From: Sulfurimonas sp.
Lineage (GTDB): Bacteria; Campylobacterota; Campylobacteria; Campylobacterales; Sulfurimonadaceae
DNA length: 64,000 nt
Direction of reading: 5' to 3'
Assembly: GCF_018698455.1 (NCBI RefSeq)
Contig: NZ_JABIOQ010000014.1
Coordinates: 1 to 64,000 of the forward strand
Part shown: in pieces, positions 15,435 through 25,643 of the stretch
Position numbering within the stretch: position 1 is the first letter of the stretch
Layout of the letters: each line of letters opens with the position of its first letter
The notes under the pieces: model-generated
Database searches by the model: none
What the model saw: the letters and a program-made list of their open reading frames with translations, nothing else
Told to the model about the DNA's origin: nothing
Program-made: the position numbers and the translations under genes

Positions 15435-15623
15435 TTACTTCCCACCCTCAAACTTCTTCTTCAACTCCTTAGCCTTTTCAGCACTCTCCACATTCAACTC
15501 AACAATATCATCAAATGCAAATCCTTTCATAATAATCTCATACAATTCAGGCTTATTTTTTCTCCAATTTCTAAGTGTTACAGGTGTAACATCAATATAC
15601 CCAGCCATATCTCTTTGAGTCAT
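15435..15623 (-). CDS. Small helix-turn-helix DNA-binding protein
   Basis: 62 residues from ATG 15623 (AGGTGG is at ribosome-binding distance; a GTG at 15632 is less likely). MTQRDMAGYIDVTPVTLRNW is a MerR/Cro-like recognition helix, followed by KNKPELYEIIMKGFAFDD and a charged C-terminal helix. Likely a local repressor: three palindromes lie between it and the divergent outer-membrane gene. Its 5' end and control region are duplicated at 25421-25643. Confidence 0.65.
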   Translation of the reverse strand: MTQRDMAGYIDVTPVTLRNWRKNKPELYEIIMKGFAFDDIVELNVESAEKAKELKKKFEGGK

Positions 15624-15866
15624 ATTTCCCACCTTTTTTAGGTAAGAATTTAACCCATAAGTCTTGAAACTACAACTAGTTAAATATTAACTATTATTTG
15701 TTGATTTATAGTTATATTTAACTATAATCTATTTTGCTAGTTAAATATTAACTCAAAAAATTAAAAAAGAGTTAATTTTAATAAATAAAATTTGACATTG
15801 TCAAGTAAATTCATAACATATAAATACTTTCCTTATGAAAGTACAGTAAAACAATGTACTTTTGTA
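15584..15866. repeat. Duplicated control region, copy A
   Basis: 283 bp covering the regulator's first codons, the operator array and the leader of the outer-membrane gene. Copy B (25421-25643, 223 bp) is nearly identical except that one 60-bp unit between two TAGTTAAATATTAACT elements is missing. Copy A also contains a palindrome TTGACATTGTCAA near 15792 and a leader hairpin AAAGTAC/GTACTTT at about 15838-15863. Confidence 0.85.
15677..15753. promoter_or_regulatory. Three phased palindromic operators
   Basis: Site 1 (15677-15693) TAGTTAA-ATA-TTAACTA; site 2 (15707-15726) TATAGTTA-TATT-TAACTATA; site 3 (15739-15753) AGTTAA-ATA-TTAACT. Centres are about 31 and 30 bp apart, three helical turns, so all face one side of the DNA. 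They lie between the divergent regulator and outer-membrane genes and are probably bound by the adjacent small regulator (inference). Confidence 0.65.
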
Positions 15867-17178: not shown

Positions 17179-17734
17179 CAACTTTGCTAATCAAAGATTT
17201 AGAAAGATTGAGATAACGACACATTTTGGTATTGCGGCCTATAAAGCTGAGCAAATGTGTTTAGTTATAAATGCAAGAACAAGTGGAGCAGTAGGAGGAA
17301 TGGATACTCATGGAGACCATGACATACAACATCCTTTATGCATTGATGAAATCGTAGAACAGATAGATGCTTTAGTCACTGACTTAAAAGAAATGGGGGT
17401 TTACGATGATAGTGTAATCGTCGTTGGCTCTGATATGGGTAGGACGCCTCAGTACAACTCCTTTAACGGTAAAGATCACTGGCCTATCACTAGTATGCTA
17501 CTTCTAGGAGGACGAGTCCAAGGTAACCAAGTAATAGGAGAAACTACAGACCTTCTTGAAGCTAAAAAAGTCGATCCTCAAACTTTAGAACTATCAGAAA
17601 ATGGGATAGAACTAACCTACCCTGATATGCATCAACTCTTTCGTCGTTACTCAGGTATTGAAAATACAGCTGTTTCAAAAAAATATGATCTCAAAGCACA
17701 AGAGTTAAACATTACAAAGTTTTTCAAAATTTAA
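17165..17734 (+). pseudogene. DUF1501-family gene remnant (C-terminal third)
   Basis: The frame opens after a TGA at 17162 and gives a C-terminal DUF1501 segment: FGIAAYKAEQ, GGMDTHGDHDIQH, VIVVGSDMGRTPQYNS, GKDHWPITSMLLLGG, and a terminal region with YPDMHQLFRRYSGI. It aligns well with the last ~190 residues of the intact DUF1501 protein at 21139-22452 (FDTHGNHD, SEFGRTPGYNSGNGKDHW). The Tat signal and N-terminal two thirds are missing. A first ATG at 17255 exists but lacks a good ribosome site. It is convergent with the apbE-like gene and not a copy of identical sequence, so it derives from a second, related locus. Confidence 0.75.
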
Positions 17735-17765: not shown

Positions 17766-18686
17766 TTACGTACAGTTAAATGCAACTGAAGATACTTTTA
17801 GGCCCTTAATATTTGAGAGTATCATGCTAGAGTCTTTTTCAATTGCAATAAGTCCAATGTTTTTTGCTTTTGTAAACTCTTTTAAATAGTTAGAATTCTT
17901 ATTAAAAAGTGCTGTTGCATATGCATCTAGTAGGTCTATATCCAATCCGTTTTGTATAATTGTAACTGAACTATATATGTTAGATGACATTCCAGTTTGT
18001 GTGTTGAGTATATGGTTGTTTTGTGGTGAGTCAATAAATCTTTCATAGTCTCCACTTGTCGAAATAGAGATGGCATCTTTTGAAGTCTTTATAAAACCAA
18101 TAGACCCATCACTGTTGGGGTCTTTTATAGCTATATTATAACTTTTACCAAAACCAACTATTTCTCCACCTACATCAACAAGTGCCTTTGTTGCCCCTAC
18201 TTCTTTTAAATATAGTGCTATTAACTTAGACACATACCCCTTACCAATACCACCTAAGTCTATCCTCACTCCACTCTTTTTAAATGATATACTCTGCTCT
18301 TGTATATCAAGTAGTTTGTAGTTGACAAGTTCCTTTTTCTCTTCTAGCTCTTCTTTACTTGCTAGCTTTTGATTGGAAAACCCAAAATGATATGCTCCAT
18401 GACTTAAAGAGCCAATGGTAATGTCAAATGCACCAGCACAAAGCCTTGATGCTTCAATGCATCTTTTAAAAAGTACAATATCTTCTTCTTCACAAAACAC
18501 TTTTTCTTTACTGGCCGTTGTATTTATTTCATATAAAAAAGAGTCTTGCTTGTATGCACTATACCTCTTCTCAAAATCAGTTGCTATTTTATAAGCTTGA
18601 TAGAGAATACTTTTTGAGACATTTGCCCTTATGAGAATTTTTGTACTCATAACTTTAGCTTCAAGAGCCTTTTCAAAAAATCTCAA
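17766..18686 (-). CDS. apbE: FAD:protein FMN transferase (ApbE)
   Basis: ApbE covalently attaches FMN to threonine of exported flavoproteins. Motifs in order: SRLCAGAFDITIGSL, the Mg/FAD-binding IDLGGIGKGYVSKLIA, LVDVGGEIVGFG, AISISTSGDYERF and NHILNTQTG, and DLLDAYATALF near the end. 306 residues, normal, but no clear signal peptide or lipobox is present at the chosen start (most homologues are exported), so it may act in the cytoplasm or be exported by an atypical N-terminus. Last gene of the seven-gene operon, 2 bp after the DUF3570 stop. No obvious ApbE target (DgxtsAT motif) is seen in the operon. Confidence 0.92.
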   Translation of the reverse strand: MRFFEKALEAKVMSTKILIRANVSKSILYQAYKIATDFEKRYSAYKQDSFLYEINTTASKEKVFCEEEDIVLFKRCIEASRLCAGAFDITIGSLSHGAYHFGFSNQKLASKEELEEKKELVNYKLLDIQEQSISFKKSGVRIDLGGIGKGYVSKLIALYLKEVGATKALVDVGGEIVGFGKSYNIAIKDPNSDGSIGFIKTSKDAISISTSGDYERFIDSPQNNHILNTQTGMSSNIYSSVTIIQNGLDIDLLDAYATALFNKNSNYLKEFTKAKNIGLIAIEKDSSMILSNIKGLKVSSVAFNCT

Positions 18687-18688
18687 TA

Positions 18689-19801
18689 TTAAAAATCGTA
18701 TTCTATAGATAGAGTAGTATATACTGCTGTTATTTTATCAATGTCATACCAATTTTTTATATATGCATTTTCAGTTGTTTGATACATATCTATACTCGCA
18801 GTTACTTTATATGGACTAGAAATTGATGGTTTGTATATAAAAGGAATTCCAATATCATAAGAGTCAAAAGCACTCATTCTATAATCAACCGCAAAGTATT
18901 GGTCATCTAAACCATAAGCACCAACATCTTTAGCAAAAAATGCATCCGATTGTGAATAATATCTTAATCGTAATCCTGATGTAACACTACTTCCAAAATC
19001 ACTTAACCATTCTGTACTAACAGTATGTGAAGATATATCCCAATCATCTGCATAGTATCTATATGAGTAGTTAATACTGTTTCTATCATTTAGCATTACT
19101 ATGCCCTTGAATGCGAATGCATGAGCTGTTCTTGTTTCAGGGTATTTCTCAAACTTTGCAAAAGTATCTTGTTTGACATAGTTGTATGGAGATGCTAAAA
19201 AACCTTCGCTATACATAAGTGAGTATATAAACTGAATGGATGCCGTAGGGGATAAAAGTTGATTTATCGACATATCAATTTTACCCTCTTTTCTATCATC
19301 TCTTGGAAGGTTTCTGTCAAATGCAGGAATCCATGTATCATCTGATTGTGAAATACCTATTCCAATTGCTGTATTTTGCTCATTGAGTTGTCTTGTATAG
19401 TTAATAAAAAATGCCCTACCTTCATAGTCACTCTCAGTAGAGTAATAAACACCACCACTCAAAGCATTGTTAGTATCTTCATATGCCATAGTTAAAGTTG
19501 GAGCGTAACGAACTTCTTCAAAAGTGCCCTCTTTTGGAGATGCACCAGTCACAACATCAACCACAGCTGGACTACCTCCATTTTTAAAACTTGCAGCAGC
19601 TATAGTGTCTACTCTAAGTTTTACTCCAATTAAAAAGTTTTTTGAAAGGGTTTTCATTAATGAAAATGTTGGGGAGTAAACTTGAACATCTGCTGTATCG
19701 TTGTAGCTGTTCAAACCTACAGTTGTGCTGTCTTTTAAAGAAGATGCATAAGATTTTAAAAATGGTACTAGAAGCATTAAACTAATAAAAAGAGATTTCA
19801 T
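18689..19801 (-). CDS. DUF3570 outer-membrane protein
   Basis: Starts at ATG 19801 overlapping the previous stop as TGATG. Signal peptide MKSLFISLMLLVPFLKSYAS, then a beta-rich protein (about 370 residues) with TTVGLNSYNDTADVQVYSP, the DUF3570 mark TGASPKEGTFEEVRYAPT, multiple aromatic strands, and a C-terminal YTTLSIEYDF typical of barrels recognised by BAM. DUF3570 genes commonly adjoin DUF4266, thioredoxin and apbE genes, as here. Function unknown; may form the outer-membrane part of the redox system. Confidence 0.85.
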   Translation of the reverse strand: MKSLFISLMLLVPFLKSYASSLKDSTTVGLNSYNDTADVQVYSPTFSLMKTLSKNFLIGVKLRVDTIAAASFKNGGSPAVVDVVTGASPKEGTFEEVRYAPTLTMAYEDTNNALSGGVYYSTESDYEGRAFFINYTRQLNEQNTAIGIGISQSDDTWIPAFDRNLPRDDRKEGKIDMSINQLLSPTASIQFIYSLMYSEGFLASPYNYVKQDTFAKFEKYPETRTAHAFAFKGIVMLNDRNSINYSYRYYADDWDISSHTVSTEWLSDFGSSVTSGLRLRYYSQSDAFFAKDVGAYGLDDQYFAVDYRMSAFDSYDIGIPFIYKPSISSPYKVTASIDMYQTTENAYIKNWYDIDKITAVYTTLSIEYDF

Positions 19802-20016
19802 CACCTGCATCCACATCCTCCTTGAAAACTACTATCTCCTCCTGCACTTGCTTCACGTATTAAGAAGATATGACTCTCTTGTTCAGCTCTCTGCGCTAAA
19901 GGTGAAAGGCTCATCTTATCTTGTGCAAAATATTCTTTTTCATAAGGCATAACTCGCACAAGTGCATCAGAACATCCAGTAAGTAGTACTAATGATACTA
20001 AAAAAATATACTGCAT
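19801..20016 (-). CDS. DUF4266 small lipoprotein with Gly/Cys tail
   Basis: 71 residues: signal with lipobox LLTGC (Cys15), then VMPYEKEYFAQDKMSLSPLA, a glutamate-rich helix, and the tail GGDSSFQGGCGCR. The combination is DUF4266. The terminal CGC could ligate a metal or form a redox disulfide serviced by the TlpA-like protein encoded just upstream. Coupled to the DUF3570 gene by overlap. Confidence 0.85.
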   Translation of the reverse strand: MQYIFLVSLVLLTGCSDALVRVMPYEKEYFAQDKMSLSPLAQRAEQESHIFLIREASAGGDSSFQGGCGCR

Positions 20017-20021
20017 TTAAA

Positions 20022-20516
20022 TTACTTTAATTTATCTATTTTAATTTTGAGTTTAGCTATATCATCATGCGATAAACTACCCACAATCACATCTCTAACT
20101 ACTCCTTGTTTATCTATGAGGTATGAAGATGGCATACCTTTTGCACCATAAGCTTTTGGCATAGATTTACTAGGATCATATAACGCTATAAATGGTCTTT
20201 TATAGCCTAACTCTTTTTCAACACTTTCTAGGAACTCTTGTGAGCTACTACTTGACTTATCTATGCTTACTGTTACTATTTTAAAGCCACTCTTATACTC
20301 TTGTTGAAGTGTGAAAAACTCTGGCATCTCTTTTTTACATCCTCCACACCAACTAGCCCATAAGTTTACCAGTACAACTTCTCCTTTGAAGTCATCCATA
20401 GAGTATGATGTAGTAGCATCTAGTGTTTGAAGTTTAAAAGCAACCGCATTATCGCCTTTTGTAACTTCTGCAGATAGACTGAGTGTTAGTAGCACCATTG
20501 TTATAATTTTTTTCAT
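20022..20516 (-). CDS. TlpA/ResA-like periplasmic thioredoxin
   Basis: 164 residues with a signal peptide (MKKIITMVLLTLSLSA) and a thioredoxin fold: VVLVNLWASWCGGCKKEMPEF with Cys57 and Cys60 as CGGC, cis-proline region AKGMPSSYLIDKQGVV. Likely reduces or exchanges disulfides of exported proteins, for example heme-binding CxxCH cysteines of the two cytochromes or the CGC tail of the DUF4266 protein (inference). 9 bp after the diheme lipoprotein gene. Confidence 0.9.
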   Translation of the reverse strand: MKKIITMVLLTLSLSAEVTKGDNAVAFKLQTLDATTSYSMDDFKGEVVLVNLWASWCGGCKKEMPEFFTLQQEYKSGFKIVTVSIDKSSSSSQEFLESVEKELGYKRPFIALYDPSKSMPKAYGAKGMPSSYLIDKQGVVRDVIVGSLSHDDIAKLKIKIDKLK

Positions 20517-20525
20517 ATTTTATTC

Positions 20526-21113
20526 CTATTGACATAAATTTACATTTGATTGTACAAATAATGGACTTGTTACACCATTATTATGACAAGCATTACATGA
20601 TATTCTATTGCTGAAGTCTATTGCTGAATCTATAGAATATTCTGCACTACTAAAACTATGAGAAGCAAAATTTGATTGTGCTAGAGTTTGGTTTGTGTCT
20701 CTTGTTATGATTCTCATAGTATATGTTCCATTAAGAGGAGCATTAAAGAGTCTATCTAGTAAAAATACATTTCCTTGACCAAGGTTACCTTTTGACTCTT
20801 CATCATAGTAGTTTACAGTAGAGTGAACTACATTCGAACTAGCATCTAAAAACTCAACTGCCAAGTCTGCATTACAGGTATTTTCTAAGTCGTTCATATC
20901 TTCAACATTAGCACTTTTATAAAGTGTACCTGCTATTGTTAGATGTTTGTTCGGAGCTAAGTCAAGATTGTGACAGGAAAGGCAATCTCTTCCTTGAAAG
21001 TGTGATCCTCTATCTGCCGCACTTACTGGTTGTGTTAACTTTTGAGTTTCTTCTCCACACCCAATGAAAAAGAGTGCAAGAGTAGTAGCAACAATGGTTT
21101 TATAGTATTTCAC
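20526..21113 (-). CDS. Diheme c-type cytochrome lipoprotein
   Basis: 195 residues; lipobox FFIGC (Cys19); heme sites CLSCH (44-48) and CNACH (173-177) at opposite ends, with a beta-sandwich-like middle (NPLNGTYTMRI-type strands; here APLNGTYTMRIITRDTNQ). Membrane-anchored periplasmic electron carrier, unassigned family. 25 bp after the DUF1501 gene. Confidence 0.8.
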   Translation of the reverse strand: MKYYKTIVATTLALFFIGCGEETQKLTQPVSAADRGSHFQGRDCLSCHNLDLAPNKHLTIAGTLYKSANVEDMNDLENTCNADLAVEFLDASSNVVHSTVNYYDEESKGNLGQGNVFLLDRLFNAPLNGTYTMRIITRDTNQTLAQSNFASHSFSSAEYSIDSAIDFSNRISCNACHNNGVTSPLFVQSNVNLCQ

Positions 21114-21138
21114 TTAAAGTTCCTTAACGATACACATT

Positions 21139-22452
21139 TTATGAAAATATATCTAAATCTTCAATAGTTCCAGCTAGGGGGTAGTATTGTGTTAAGAGTT
21201 GGTTATTCTCTATTTTTGCTAGTTTTCGCATGGCTTTATTTATATGAGCATAAGTTATATTTATCCCATTTTCATCAACTGCTAAAGTGGTAGGGTTTAC
21301 TTTTAAAGCATCGTGTCTATGAGTAGAAGCACCGACAACACGGCCACCTGTAATTCCTTTACCCATAAACATCATAGAACTAACACTCCAGTGATCTTTA
21401 CCGTTACCACTATTATAGCCAGGTGTTCTGCCAAATTCAGAGCCAATTACAAAAATAACATTATCAGAGATACCTTGGTTTTCTGCCTCTTGTTTGAGTA
21501 AATCTACACCTTTTAATAATCTAGCTAGTCTTGGTATATGAGTAGCATCATGGTTTCCATGTGTATCAAAACTACCAAAATTGATATTAACACTTGCAGT
21601 CAGTCCAGCCTTATAGCCCGCCATTGCAAAACGACCTTGAGAAAAAACTTGATTGTTTCTATCTGGGTGTGTATTTACATCATCTGGTAAAAACTCTACT
21701 AATTTTTTAAGTTCATTGGAGCCACTATGAGCTAAACCATATTGTTTTGCTAACTTTATAATAGACTCCAGACCTTGATTTGCTATTGTTCTGTTTGTGC
21801 GTGCTTCATTTGCTGCTTTAATTCTATTAAAATCATCATCATGAAAATAGTTATTATCATCATTATATCGATTTACAAAAGCGAGTTCATTTATTGCATT
21901 CATATTGCTCAGTCGTGTTCCTGCTACAACACCAAATGTTTCATCATATCCACCAGCTGTAATAAATGCTAAAGGAGAAGCAGGATTACTTATACCTGCA
22001 ACTAAGGCAGATAAAGCAGGGTATCCCTCTGAAAGTTTTCCACTCATCATATATCTACGACCTGAGTCATGACCATTTGTTTGAGTATCTATTCCGTTAA
22101 CGACTAAAAGTTCCGCACCAAACTTATCAAAAAAAGTTGAGAATTCATAATCAACATTGTTGTCATCTAAACCTCTAACTGGAGCATATTTAATAGCAGA
22201 AGCTGAAGTTGATGTTGCAATATCAACATTTGCATAACTCCTATTCATTGCTGCTGATGTAGGGTTGTCATTTGAATCCAACTCTTCTTCAAGGAAGCCT
22301 TTAGGGTCACAAAAAGATGTTGGATCCCAACCACCAGATGCTTGAACAAACACCCAAAGAGGGTTATCGCCTACATTTGCTTGAAGTGTGTTTGGAAAAA
22401 GAGCCATTGCCGCAACAACCGATGTGTATTTCAAAAAATTTCTACGTAACAT
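21139..22452 (-). CDS. DUF1501 family protein, Tat-exported
   Basis: Start at ATG 22452 behind AAGGAGAA. Twin-arginine signal LRRNFLKYTSVVAAMALFP at residues 2-20. The body belongs to the alkaline-phosphatase-like DUF1501 family: WVFVQASGGWDPTSFCDPKG, VVNGIDTQTNGHDSGRRY, NFGSFDTHGNHDATHI and VIGSEFGRTPGYNSGNGKDH, where His/Asp/Gly positions could form a metal site. About 437 residues. DUF1501 genes usually pair with planctomycete-type cytochrome genes; here the partner starts 10 bp upstream. Biochemical activity is unknown. Confidence 0.88.
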   Translation of the reverse strand: MLRRNFLKYTSVVAAMALFPNTLQANVGDNPLWVFVQASGGWDPTSFCDPKGFLEEELDSNDNPTSAAMNRSYANVDIATSTSASAIKYAPVRGLDDNNVDYEFSTFFDKFGAELLVVNGIDTQTNGHDSGRRYMMSGKLSEGYPALSALVAGISNPASPLAFITAGGYDETFGVVAGTRLSNMNAINELAFVNRYNDDNNYFHDDDFNRIKAANEARTNRTIANQGLESIIKLAKQYGLAHSGSNELKKLVEFLPDDVNTHPDRNNQVFSQGRFAMAGYKAGLTASVNINFGSFDTHGNHDATHIPRLARLLKGVDLLKQEAENQGISDNVIFVIGSEFGRTPGYNSGNGKDHWSVSSMMFMGKGITGGRVVGASTHRHDALKVNPTTLAVDENGINITYAHINKAMRKLAKIENNQLLTQYYPLAGTIEDLDIFS

Positions 22453-22462
22453 AATATTCTCC

Positions 22463-24766
22463 TTACTCTGCACTATTTTCATAGACAAATTTAAAATCAC
22501 TTAAAAGATAAGCGACAACTACTTGCCATGAACGGATAACATAATTAGCATCTCGATAAACTCGATCATCTGCTCTACCATCATTGTATAATCCTTCACG
22601 AGTTACTGGATCATAGTGAAGTTCACATACATCCATTATTTCTTTTGATTCATCACCAAGAGAAATACGATTTTTACCCGCAGTATACGTTTGCATAAAT
22701 AGCTCATATGTCTTTTCTAGCTCAACAGTACCTAGAGGAAGTTCTTCGCCTAATATATGCTTATGAAGATGCTGAATATTTTTCTTTATCGCTGCGATAA
22801 AAAATTCATTTTCAGGTTCTAATGTTGTACTCACATATGGGAAAAGCTTACGTTCACTAGCAGGAAAATAAAAATCTCTTGAAACAGGATAGCATGACAT
22901 CTGAAGAGCCATACGAGTCTGAATACTTGCCATAACGCCATTAAGCTCTTCTACTCTAGTTGAAATAGATCCTGAGTTAATACCTCCATAAAGTATCTTG
23001 TAATTATCATCTCTTAGAAGTCTGTGAGTATATGATCTATTGTTGTCAGCATCACCTTGTCTTCTATATATACTCCAGTAGTAACCCATAACATCATATA
23101 TTTTACTGTTAAGTGCTTCTGGCGTTATAAGTTTAGCCTGCCCTAGTCTCTCTGAGAGTACACTATTTGTACTCCCAGTTGCTACAGCTCTATAGAGTGG
23201 TGACTTTACAATCTCTTTTATAACAAGTTTAGCATCAAGACTACTTGCTATAAACTTATCTTTAATAGCCTCTAAAATAGAATTTTCATATGTATATGCT
23301 TCTAGTTTATTGACATAGTCAATATCGTCACTGACAGGCTGAGTTAATGCATCTCTTCCTAACAGTGCTTTATAAAACAGCTTTACTATAGACTTAGCAA
23401 AACGTTCATCTTTTGTAATTTCACCTGCTAACCATTGTAGTAAGTTTCCTGATGCACTTTGTGGTGCAGTATTTGACAAGCTTATTCCAGCAGTTTGTGC
23501 TACGTCTCCACGAAAACCAGGTCTATATCTACCATTATTATCCCAGTTTTTAAAAGCACTTGCTATAGGCTCCATCACATTGTGACATACTGTACAGTTA
23601 GGATTTGTCCATGTTGCTGTATCGCTTACTACTTCATCAGAATTTAGCGGACGATTTGCCAATCCTAATATATCTGTATCTAGAAAGAAAATCTGTGCTT
23701 TAGCAGATCTGTGACGGTCCAAGTTAGTATTTGTAGAAGGAAATCTATTTAAGTAAGTGATAGTTGTAAAAATTCCTGCATGAGGAATACCATCTATTTT
23801 TGCTTCTCTAAATACATCTTGTGGATATTTTGCTTCTATCTCGTCTTTAGTGACATTTAACTCATGCACATATGTAAACCCACTTATGTCAATGTCATAT
23901 GTTTTTGCAGAAAATGGATTTACCATTACATAATCAGCTGTTAATATCTCACTAAATGGACGGTTCTCTTTGATTACATGGACTATTAACTCTATCGCTT
24001 CTCGTGATATTGCATAGTTTGTGTAGTTGTCAATTTCGTTGTATTCACCATCATCAATATCTTCCCACCATCTCCTTTGTGGAAAGTCCGTACTACTTAA
24101 AAGGTTTTCTCCATCATGTCCAGGTGTATAAAAGTCTGTTAATAGTACATCGTTAAAACTAAGTCTAACCCAGTCATAAAAAGCTTTGCTTTGCATATAT
24201 TTGTCAAGGGAAGCATCTATGTCTTCTATAGATTTTACACTGTTTATTTCATCACTATTTGGTGCTTTTCCTTGTATGGCATAAGAGGCACTTCTAAGAG
24301 TTTTTGTGGGCGAGAGCAGTGATACTGCTGCATTTGTAAGTGTTGTATTTTGAGTGGCACTTACACATGTCTTGGTGTCTTTAACATATGCAACAAATTC
24401 TTCAACATTATCTTTAGCAGTACCAGTTAGCTGTACACCCCCACTATGAGAAACTTCATTTGAACCTTTTTGGACAAGTTGTGATCCTGCTGATTTTATA
24501 TAGGTCTGTAAAATATTATAATTTTCAGCCTTATTATCACCAAGAGGACTCGCTAAAACTAACCTATTACCCTTGTAGTCACCGCCAGAAGAGTGGCAAG
24601 AGACACATGAGCTAAGTGCTAAAGAAACAGAGTCATTAAAATACTCTTGCTTACATGATTCAGTATTACCTTGTACTTTTGCACTATCGTCTGTGGTCTC
24701 TTGAGAATTACATCCTACAAGAAAAAGAGCAGTAATAATCGAACTATATGAAAGTAATTTTTTCAT
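22463..24766 (-). CDS. Planctomycete-type diheme cytochrome c lipoprotein (DUF1588-like)
   Basis: 767 residues, first gene of the operon. Lipobox LVGC (Cys19); heme site CVSCH at 54-58 in an N-terminal cytochrome domain; second site CTVCH in the centre followed by MEPIASAFKNWDNNGRYRPG, the DUF1588 hallmark, preceded by HAGIFTTITYLNRFPSTNTN. A further ~330 residues follow with no heme site. This is the type of large periplasmic protein usually encoded next to DUF1501/DUF1552 genes. AGGAGAA precedes the ATG, and a c-di-GMP riboswitch-like leader lies 72 bp upstream. Confidence 0.82.
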   Translation of the reverse strand: MKKLLSYSSIITALFLVGCNSQETTDDSAKVQGNTESCKQEYFNDSVSLALSSCVSCHSSGGDYKGNRLVLASPLGDNKAENYNILQTYIKSAGSQLVQKGSNEVSHSGGVQLTGTAKDNVEEFVAYVKDTKTCVSATQNTTLTNAAVSLLSPTKTLRSASYAIQGKAPNSDEINSVKSIEDIDASLDKYMQSKAFYDWVRLSFNDVLLTDFYTPGHDGENLLSSTDFPQRRWWEDIDDGEYNEIDNYTNYAISREAIELIVHVIKENRPFSEILTADYVMVNPFSAKTYDIDISGFTYVHELNVTKDEIEAKYPQDVFREAKIDGIPHAGIFTTITYLNRFPSTNTNLDRHRSAKAQIFFLDTDILGLANRPLNSDEVVSDTATWTNPNCTVCHNVMEPIASAFKNWDNNGRYRPGFRGDVAQTAGISLSNTAPQSASGNLLQWLAGEITKDERFAKSIVKLFYKALLGRDALTQPVSDDIDYVNKLEAYTYENSILEAIKDKFIASSLDAKLVIKEIVKSPLYRAVATGSTNSVLSERLGQAKLITPEALNSKIYDVMGYYWSIYRRQGDADNNRSYTHRLLRDDNYKILYGGINSGSISTRVEELNGVMASIQTRMALQMSCYPVSRDFYFPASERKLFPYVSTTLEPENEFFIAAIKKNIQHLHKHILGEELPLGTVELEKTYELFMQTYTAGKNRISLGDESKEIMDVCELHYDPVTREGLYNDGRADDRVYRDANYVIRSWQVVVAYLLSDFKFVYENSAE

Positions 24767-24837
24767 TTTATTCTCCTAAATGTTTAAAGTTTTTAAGGTT
24801 TAATAAGAATTATAGGTGGCAAGTATAATGTTGAAGA

Positions 24838-24916
24838 ATATTTGCAACTCGGCTATCTTAATAACATAAGACCCATAAGCTTTCCGTCCTTGCTTCGCAA
24901 CAAGTTTGGCATTTTA
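24838..24916 (-). promoter_or_regulatory. Class I cyclic-di-GMP (GEMM) riboswitch
   Basis: On the minus strand, GCCAAAC, a small hairpin with CGAAG loop, GGACGGAAAGC, GGGTCT, an AT-rich hairpin and AGCCGAGTTGC follow in the order and spacing of the GEMM-I aptamer (GCAAAC..GAAA..GGACGCAAAGC..GGGTCT..AGCCGGGTT). It is 72 bp upstream of the DUF1588-like gene, in the correct orientation. No strong terminator separates it from the ATG, so control may be at translation (AGGAG accessibility) or by an unrecognised attenuator. Confidence 0.8.
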
Positions 24917-25023
24917 AATACTTATATAAGAAAATTCTATAATAAGTAACATTAAATCATTATTAAACATATAAATAAGAATTTGCAAGAAGCTAGAGAA
25001 GGCTGTCAAAAATTATGCGATGA

Positions 25024-25308: not shown

Positions 25309-25455
25309 ATGAATAAAAAACAAATAGCTATTTTAAGTGTCGGAAATATATCAAATCAAGATGAAGGTATTGCTTTATATGCGAGTAAATACTTAGAATC
25401 TAACTACAGTTTTCACCCAAGTGTAACATCAATATCCCCAGCCATATCTCTTTGA
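25309..25455 (+). pseudogene. Truncated hydrogenase maturation protease
   Basis: MNKKQIAILSVGNISNQDEG, IALYASKYLESNYSFHPS is the N-terminus of a HybD/HupD-type [NiFe]-hydrogenase maturation endopeptidase (xxILGVGNILxxDEGxG). At 25421, after HPS, it runs into the inserted copy B repeat and stops at 25453-25455. The catalytic His and C-terminal half are gone. No hydrogenase genes are in the window. Confidence 0.7.
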
Positions 25456-25643
25456 GTCATATTTCCCACCTTTTTTAGGTAAGAATTTAACCCATAAGTC
25501 TTGAAACTACAACTAGTTAAATATTAACTCAAAAAATTAAAAAAGAGTTAATTTTAATAAATTAAATATTGACATTGTCAAGTAAATTCATAACATATAA
25601 ATACTTTCCTTATGAAAGTACAGTAAAACAATGAACTTTTGTA
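25421..25643. repeat. Duplicated control region, copy B
   Basis: Near-identical partial copy of 15584-15866 lacking one 60-bp unit between two operator repeats, so it keeps a single palindrome at 25515-25529. It interrupts the protease fragment. Its leader-hairpin arm is mutated (GTACTTT to GAACTTT). The remaining 25644-25811 shows only a small hairpin GCGAT/ATCGC near 25765. Confidence 0.85.

Follow-up and report, generated by a model that had tools for sequence, protein, structure and literature searches.

A minus-strand operon in a Sulfurimonas genome may encode a c-di-GMP-controlled envelope electron chain of thiol, flavin, and heme carriers that serves a cytochrome/DUF1501 pair, a reading to which we assign a probability of roughly 0.45. 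The operon comprises seven genes at positions 17766–24766 of the window (i.e., the whole 64,000-nt stretch of DNA analyzed), separated by gaps of about 25 nt or less or joined by short overlaps. Judging by its nearest relatives, the genome belongs to Sulfurimonas. One half of the operon, DUF3570/DUF4266/thioredoxin/ApbE, is already known (PMC8238504); what is new is its joining to a CYT1588/DUF1501 pair, a diheme lipoprotein, and a c-di-GMP-I riboswitch. The features, in order from the 5' end of the operon, are as follows.

24840..24920, minus strand: c-di-GMP-I (GEMM-I) riboswitch aptamer (Rfam RF01051), about 75 nt upstream of the first gene
22463..24766, minus strand: CYT1588, a 767-aa diheme lipoprotein and divergent PSCyt (DUF1592/DUF1588) protein (Pfam, heme motifs)
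21139..22500 (likely start 22452), minus strand: DUF1501 protein with Tat signal RRNFLK (Pfam, AlphaFold)
20526..21113, minus strand: second diheme lipoprotein, 195 aa, with two CXXCH motifs (translation; no Pfam family above cut-off)
20022..20516, minus strand: TlpA/ResA-type exported thioredoxin with WCGGC (Pfam Redoxin, 83 bits)
19801..20016, minus strand: DUF4266 lipoprotein with C-terminal GGCGCR (CXC) (Pfam, 54 bits)
18689..19816, minus strand: DUF3570 outer-membrane barrel, predicted ApbE substrate (Pfam, 161 bits; TGAS motif)
17766..18686, minus strand: ApbE flavin transferase without a signal peptide (Pfam, 183 bits)

All seven genes lie at the place and on the strand at which a sequence-only reading of this DNA had proposed a compact operon. 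The Tat signal and lipid anchors that it described are also recognizable by eye in the translations, as a Tat motif whose twin arginine is invariant in 59 DUF1501 homologues and as the lipobox sequences LVGC, FIGC, and LTGC; the GGCGC tail noted for the DUF4266 protein reads GGCGCR. DsbD is absent from the operon, and one DsbD gene is found elsewhere in the same genome. The whole operon lies within the approximately 9.8 kb between direct-repeat blocks (112 nt each; 98% and 87% identical) at 15581–15866 and 25418–25643. A small HTH gene (15435–15632) reaches into the left copy with its 5' end, and a broken version of this gene is found in the right copy; these blocks may mark an insertion or a segmental duplication. 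Convergent with the ApbE gene, at 17255–17734 on the plus strand, is the C-terminal part of another, distinct DUF1501 protein, which lacks the N-terminal half and is 38% identical to the operon copy.

A lack of co-conservation between the two halves had been named beforehand as grounds for regarding the operon as a chance juxtaposition, and the neighborhood survey found the halves together in both Sulfurimonas and gammaproteobacteria. Among the neighborhoods of 80 DUF1501 relatives compared, the halves are linked in three Sulfurimonas genomes. The full seven-gene set with riboswitch recurs in a second Sulfurimonas (L005/G418), where CYT1588 is split by one apparent frameshift, and a third (L008) has the set without a detected TlpA. 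Near-complete sets are found in Thalassolituus-type bacteria, Methylococcales, and one further gammaproteobacterium. In five gammaproteobacterial loci (L040, L042, L048, L065, and L082) the set runs CYT1588, DUF1501, TlpA, DUF4266, DUF3570, and ApbE, with DUF4266 read directly in L040 and L065. Three others (L074, L083, and L084) have no TlpA match within the cluster, the contig of L052 ends inside ApbE, and in L178 the set is present with ApbE placed ahead of CYT1588.

Co-occurrence extends beyond linkage. Among 135 Sulfurimonas genomes, DUF1501 is present in 8, DUF3570 in 23, and both in 7 (p = 1.3e-5 by a Fisher test, which ignores shared ancestry). Thus, DUF3570 occurs in 7/8 genomes with DUF1501 and in 16/127 without, and the partners include unlinked cases. 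Among 369 gammaproteobacterial genomes, DUF3570 is found in 93, which include four of the five genomes with a CYT1588 match, two of these four being genomes entered as seeds. For the 38 pair-bearing genomes outside Sulfurimonas, DUF3570 is present somewhere in 26 and not detectable in 12. A phylum-wide protein search of 397 genomes found the pair in its own genome only, as carriers of the pair are scarce and the genomes drawn did not include the others. Together, linkage and co-occurrence rule out chance juxtaposition, and of the earlier suggestion of an electron-transfer complex they support a functional envelope redox operon, the complex itself being putative.

Several further loci deserve mention. 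Thalassolituus alkanivorans (L177; G500 C29) has a second, divergent CYT1588–DUF1501 pair; a lone DUF3570 gene, separated from it by one gene, is convergent with this pair. In another gammaproteobacterium (L180; G678 C21), a DUF1501 gene adjoins a very long open frame (about 2900 aa over the part read) that contains a CYT1588-like region. At L010 (G497 C69), CYT1588 is shortened, DUF1501 is spread over several frames, ApbE adjoins, and a possible transposase-like ORF lies upstream; these broken genes could be the result of decay or of long-read sequencing errors.

Clusters of thioredoxin, DUF4266, DUF3570, and ApbE, with or without DsbD, were described by Meheust et al. 2021 (PMC8238504), in agreement with the statement in the sequence-only reading that these genes form a separate module elsewhere, and DUF3570 flavinylation was shown for Chlorobium luteolum in the same work. 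The Sulfurimonas operon likewise has a thioredoxin-like protein, a DUF4266 protein with CXC, DUF3570, and ApbE in one cluster; DsbD adjoins in several other Sulfurimonas loci and is unlinked in this genome. In contrast to those clusters, the operon adds the diheme lipoprotein, the CYT1588/DUF1501 pair, and the c-di-GMP-I riboswitch, and its DUF3570 has one strict flavinylation motif rather than two. This single [ST]GA[ST] match is TGAS at residues 90–93, and the first site is degenerate (TIAAAS). Gammaproteobacterial DUF3570 copies have two SGAS motifs, and some near relatives of the operon copy have xGAS alone. The CXC tail of DUF4266 is conserved in all copies compared. Inspection of N-termini by eye revealed no obvious signal peptide in any joined or linked ApbE copy compared. 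Most ApbEs are secreted, yet cytosolic ones exist (PMC12052999), such that flavinylation may take place before or after export.

The layout of most other Sulfurimonas DUF3570 loci, subject to local losses and rearrangements, indicates where the pair was added. These loci start with a response regulator, a lipoprotein with three to four CXXCH motifs, the diheme lipoprotein, TlpA, DUF4266, DUF3570, and ApbE, followed by DsbD, an outer-membrane protein, a small exported protein, an HD-GYP response regulator, and a histidine kinase. In several of them, the HD and HHE-GYP motifs of the HD-GYP response regulator are intact. In the operon, the riboswitch, CYT1588, and DUF1501 hold the place of the 3–4-heme lipoprotein, and this occupation of its slot makes the pair most likely an electron partner or exit of the same thiol/flavin core. 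In most Sulfurimonas copies, the diheme lipoprotein gene immediately precedes TlpA-DUF4266-DUF3570-ApbE; the joined versions of gammaproteobacteria lack it. Consequently, the boundary between the halves lies elsewhere than envisaged earlier, as in Sulfurimonas the diheme lipoprotein goes with the DUF3570 module and not with DUF1501.

Phylogenies suggest that the join probably arose more than once, independently in other bacteria. In the DUF3570 tree, the operon copy and its G418 counterpart are nested among Sulfurimonas genes with multiheme front ends (SH-aLRT 98), and the L008 copy falls outside these genes on a long branch. In the DUF1501 tree, the Sulfurimonas clade is apart from the joined gammaproteobacterial clade, and a single clade of the two is rejected by the AU test (p = 0.032, a modest margin with long branches present). 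It is the nesting, the outside position of L008, and this rejection that point to a recurrent join. The simplest reading of these trees would be that the multiheme front-end lipoprotein was swapped for riboswitch-CYT1588-DUF1501 in this lineage and that the halves were joined at least once more elsewhere.

These patterns also bear on the alternative that survives best, namely that two independent systems exchange no electrons and share one promoter because the cell needs the two of them in the same c-di-GMP state. The CYT1588/DUF1501 pair is mostly bare in Myxococcota and stands alone in all Myxococcota loci examined as well as in L006, L009, and L119, and the DUF3570 module is alone in many Sulfurimonas genomes, all as expected of two separable systems. 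However, joins recur in separate lineages, the halves co-occur even when unlinked, and the pair sits immediately before the diheme gene, in the place that another heme lipoprotein otherwise holds. Taken together, these three observations favor a physical or redox partnership, and two independent systems appear unlikely, if still a serious contender.

The claim that the operon is riboswitch-led is borne out by an RF01051 match upstream of CYT1588 (24920–24840), which scores 60.6 bits against a gathering score of 35, covers all 87 model positions, and is the only copy in the 2.23-Mb genome. Each of the five intact Sulfurimonas pair loci for which 5' sequence is available (G000, G403, G410, G418, and G462) has a riboswitch ahead of CYT1588, and c-di-GMP-I riboswitches are also upstream of CYT1588 in loci L005, L006, and L009. 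Among the riboswitch matches listed, none is at the front of the multiheme-type DUF3570 loci read in Sulfurimonas. At CM position 11, which is read as position 20 on the basis of the structure layout, the aptamer has a G, as do 7/7 aligned aptamers. A G20A mutant of GEMM-I binds cGAMP (PMC6274999). The G at the presumed position 20 fits c-di-GMP over cGAMP, and its retention disfavors a cGAMP-type riboswitch; judging from the aptamer sequence, the ligand in this Sulfurimonas would be c-di-GMP. Geobacter also has GEMM-I switches upstream of envelope c-type cytochrome genes (PMC6456294), but those are cGAMP-selective GEMM-Ib switches, whereas the Sulfurimonas one keeps this G, and the cytochromes that they control belong to other families. 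In the leader, no intrinsic terminator was predicted and no expression platform was identified. The minimum-energy fold places a hairpin over the ribosome-binding site, yet the leader folds no better than shuffles.

Across the genus, c-di-GMP-I riboswitches occur in 49 of 135 genomes, some near genes for DUF4214-like repeat proteins or small exported proteins (loci L129–L157). One recurrent site is between gatB and an atpB-side gene (L006/L168, L009, L136, L140, L143, L148, L149, and L153). There, a riboswitch in the same position precedes either the CYT1588–DUF1501 pair (L006/L168; L009 up to the contig end) or an exported protein of about 96 aa (L136, L149, L153, and others), which indicates that the riboswitch slot can change cargo. 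A literature query joining Sulfurimonas, c-di-GMP, and riboswitch returned no paper.

CYT1588 had been described as a DUF1588-like diheme lipoprotein. The two hemes are present, at C54-x-x-C57-H58 and C391-x-x-C394-H395, and the DUF1592/PSD4 match is above its cut-off (29.3 vs. 23.3 bits). However, this match and that to DUF1588/PSCyt3 (26.3–27.4 bits, around the cut-off of 27) are both partial, which makes CYT1588 a divergent family member. Across 50 homologues, the CXXCH at 391–395 is invariant and that at 54–58 is found in 45, the other five having alignment gaps there. The AlphaFold model (pLDDT 85) is mostly helical, and profile comparison shows a resemblance between the N-terminal heme domain and class I cytochrome c. 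No clear solved relative was found for most of the protein, by sequence or by fold against the PDB, and such a missing fold match does not demonstrate a new fold. The rubber dioxygenase RoxC was rejected as an identity for CYT1588, as the match is weak and confined to the N-terminus (25 bits vs. a cut-off of 900). The order CYT1588–DUF1501 is kept in about 80 loci. Planctomycete-type PSCyt/PSD and DUF1501/DUF1552 pairs similarly combine a Tat-exported DUF1501 protein with a neighboring cytochrome that has DUF1592/DUF1588 segments; CYT1588 differs from these in being divergent, with partial PSCyt3/PSD4 matches, and in being a lipoprotein that is riboswitch-led and joined to a flavin module.

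The DUF1501 protein (Pfam match, 77 bits) probably starts at 22452 (MLRRNFLK) instead of 22500. Its AlphaFold model (pLDDT 82.7) matches sulfatases in Foldseek (prob 1.00, E 9e-6) and aligns with a nucleotide pyrophosphatase/phosphodiesterase (Z 18.2 (VIA); rmsd 3.4 over 241 residues). The modeled structure is an alkaline phosphatase/sulfatase superfamily fold, which narrows the earlier idea of metal handling. Its invariant residues (D59, D65, D138, H144, D312, H314, H317, D318, D369, and H370, plus D/E355) appear metal-site-like by type and motif, rather than by superposition on a catalytic site. DUF1501 would bind the terminal substrate, which may be a phosphorylated or sulfated ligand, or a metal.

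The predicted fold invites the alternative that CYT1588/DUF1501 remodels a surface polymer, as a redox-assisted esterase or oxidoreductase that acts on phosphorylated or sulfated exopolysaccharide and is powered or regenerated by flavin and heme. Matrix production is commonly under c-di-GMP control, and the modeled phosphatase/sulfatase fold with its invariant D/H residues is in keeping with such an activity. Furthermore, DUF1501 genes travel with chitin synthase genes (PMC5122149), and in Verrucomicrobia PSCyt genes lie near sulfatases, and some of these PSCyt genes include carbohydrate-binding domains (PMC5615132). Against this alternative, the operon contains no polysaccharide gene, and the superfamily's catalytic nucleophile could not be assigned in the DUF1501 model, leaving catalysis putative; on balance it is improbable. 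A more specific version is a long shot: covalently flavinylated DUF3570 would drive the pair as a heme-coupled enzyme of the envelope that is under c-di-GMP control and chemically modifies a phosphorylated or sulfated surface polymer; if true, the large PSCyt/DUF1501 families would be redox-driven surface-modifying enzymes. The fold together with the chitin synthase and sulfatase associations nonetheless makes surface polymer worth testing as a substrate. Acquisition of iron or another metal, in which extracellular or periplasmic metal is reduced for uptake and DUF1501 is the metal-binding capture protein, is hardly probable: a VIT1 iron transporter is found in 25 DUF3570-system clusters (PMC8238504) and L122 has a TonB receptor and a PepSY_TM protein just upstream, but an oppositely oriented gene separates these from the L122 operon, no metal transporter is among the genes of the Sulfurimonas operon described here, and the visible control is by c-di-GMP and not by an iron signal.

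The preferred electron chain would have been made by joining two modules, one of diheme lipoprotein, TlpA, DUF4266, DUF3570, and ApbE, and the other of CYT1588 and DUF1501, with the riboswitch arriving together with the latter and c-di-GMP setting expression. Reducing power may pass from DsbD to the exported TlpA and then to the CXC of the DUF4266 lipoprotein. From there it would reach FMN placed by ApbE on the DUF3570 outer-membrane barrel, and the diheme lipoprotein would act as a heme relay after this FMN. CYT1588 and the Tat-exported, phosphatase-fold DUF1501 protein would form the terminal unit, the partnership of these two being itself presumed. The order and direction of electron flow are likewise putative, the direction resting on analogy with the DsbD link in the previously described clusters (PMC8238504). 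That DsbD adjoins ApbE at several other loci of Sulfurimonas, and that several contain an HD-GYP response regulator, is consistent with this chain. Several findings count against it. The pair stands alone in Myxococcota and several Sulfurimonas genomes, suggesting that the flavin module is not always needed locally, and DUF3570 is common in gammaproteobacteria anyway (93/369). In addition, the other DUF3570 site is degenerate, ApbE has no export signal though its substrate is exported, and the leader gave neither an expression platform nor a fold better than shuffles.

Planctomycetes, Verrucomicrobia, and Myxococcota are rich in PSCyt cytochromes and DUF1501 proteins, for which the papers found give no known function. 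The recurrent join of such cytochromes and DUF1501 proteins to a flavin/thiol core provides a candidate redox partner and a regulatory input for these families. Riboswitch control by c-di-GMP would tie the chain to the sessile/motile decision, and the join occurs in a genus that includes cultivated members and is placed behind a defined second-messenger switch. Taken together, the operon may exemplify an envelope redox system of modular design, with heme front ends that can be exchanged on a thiol-flavin core.
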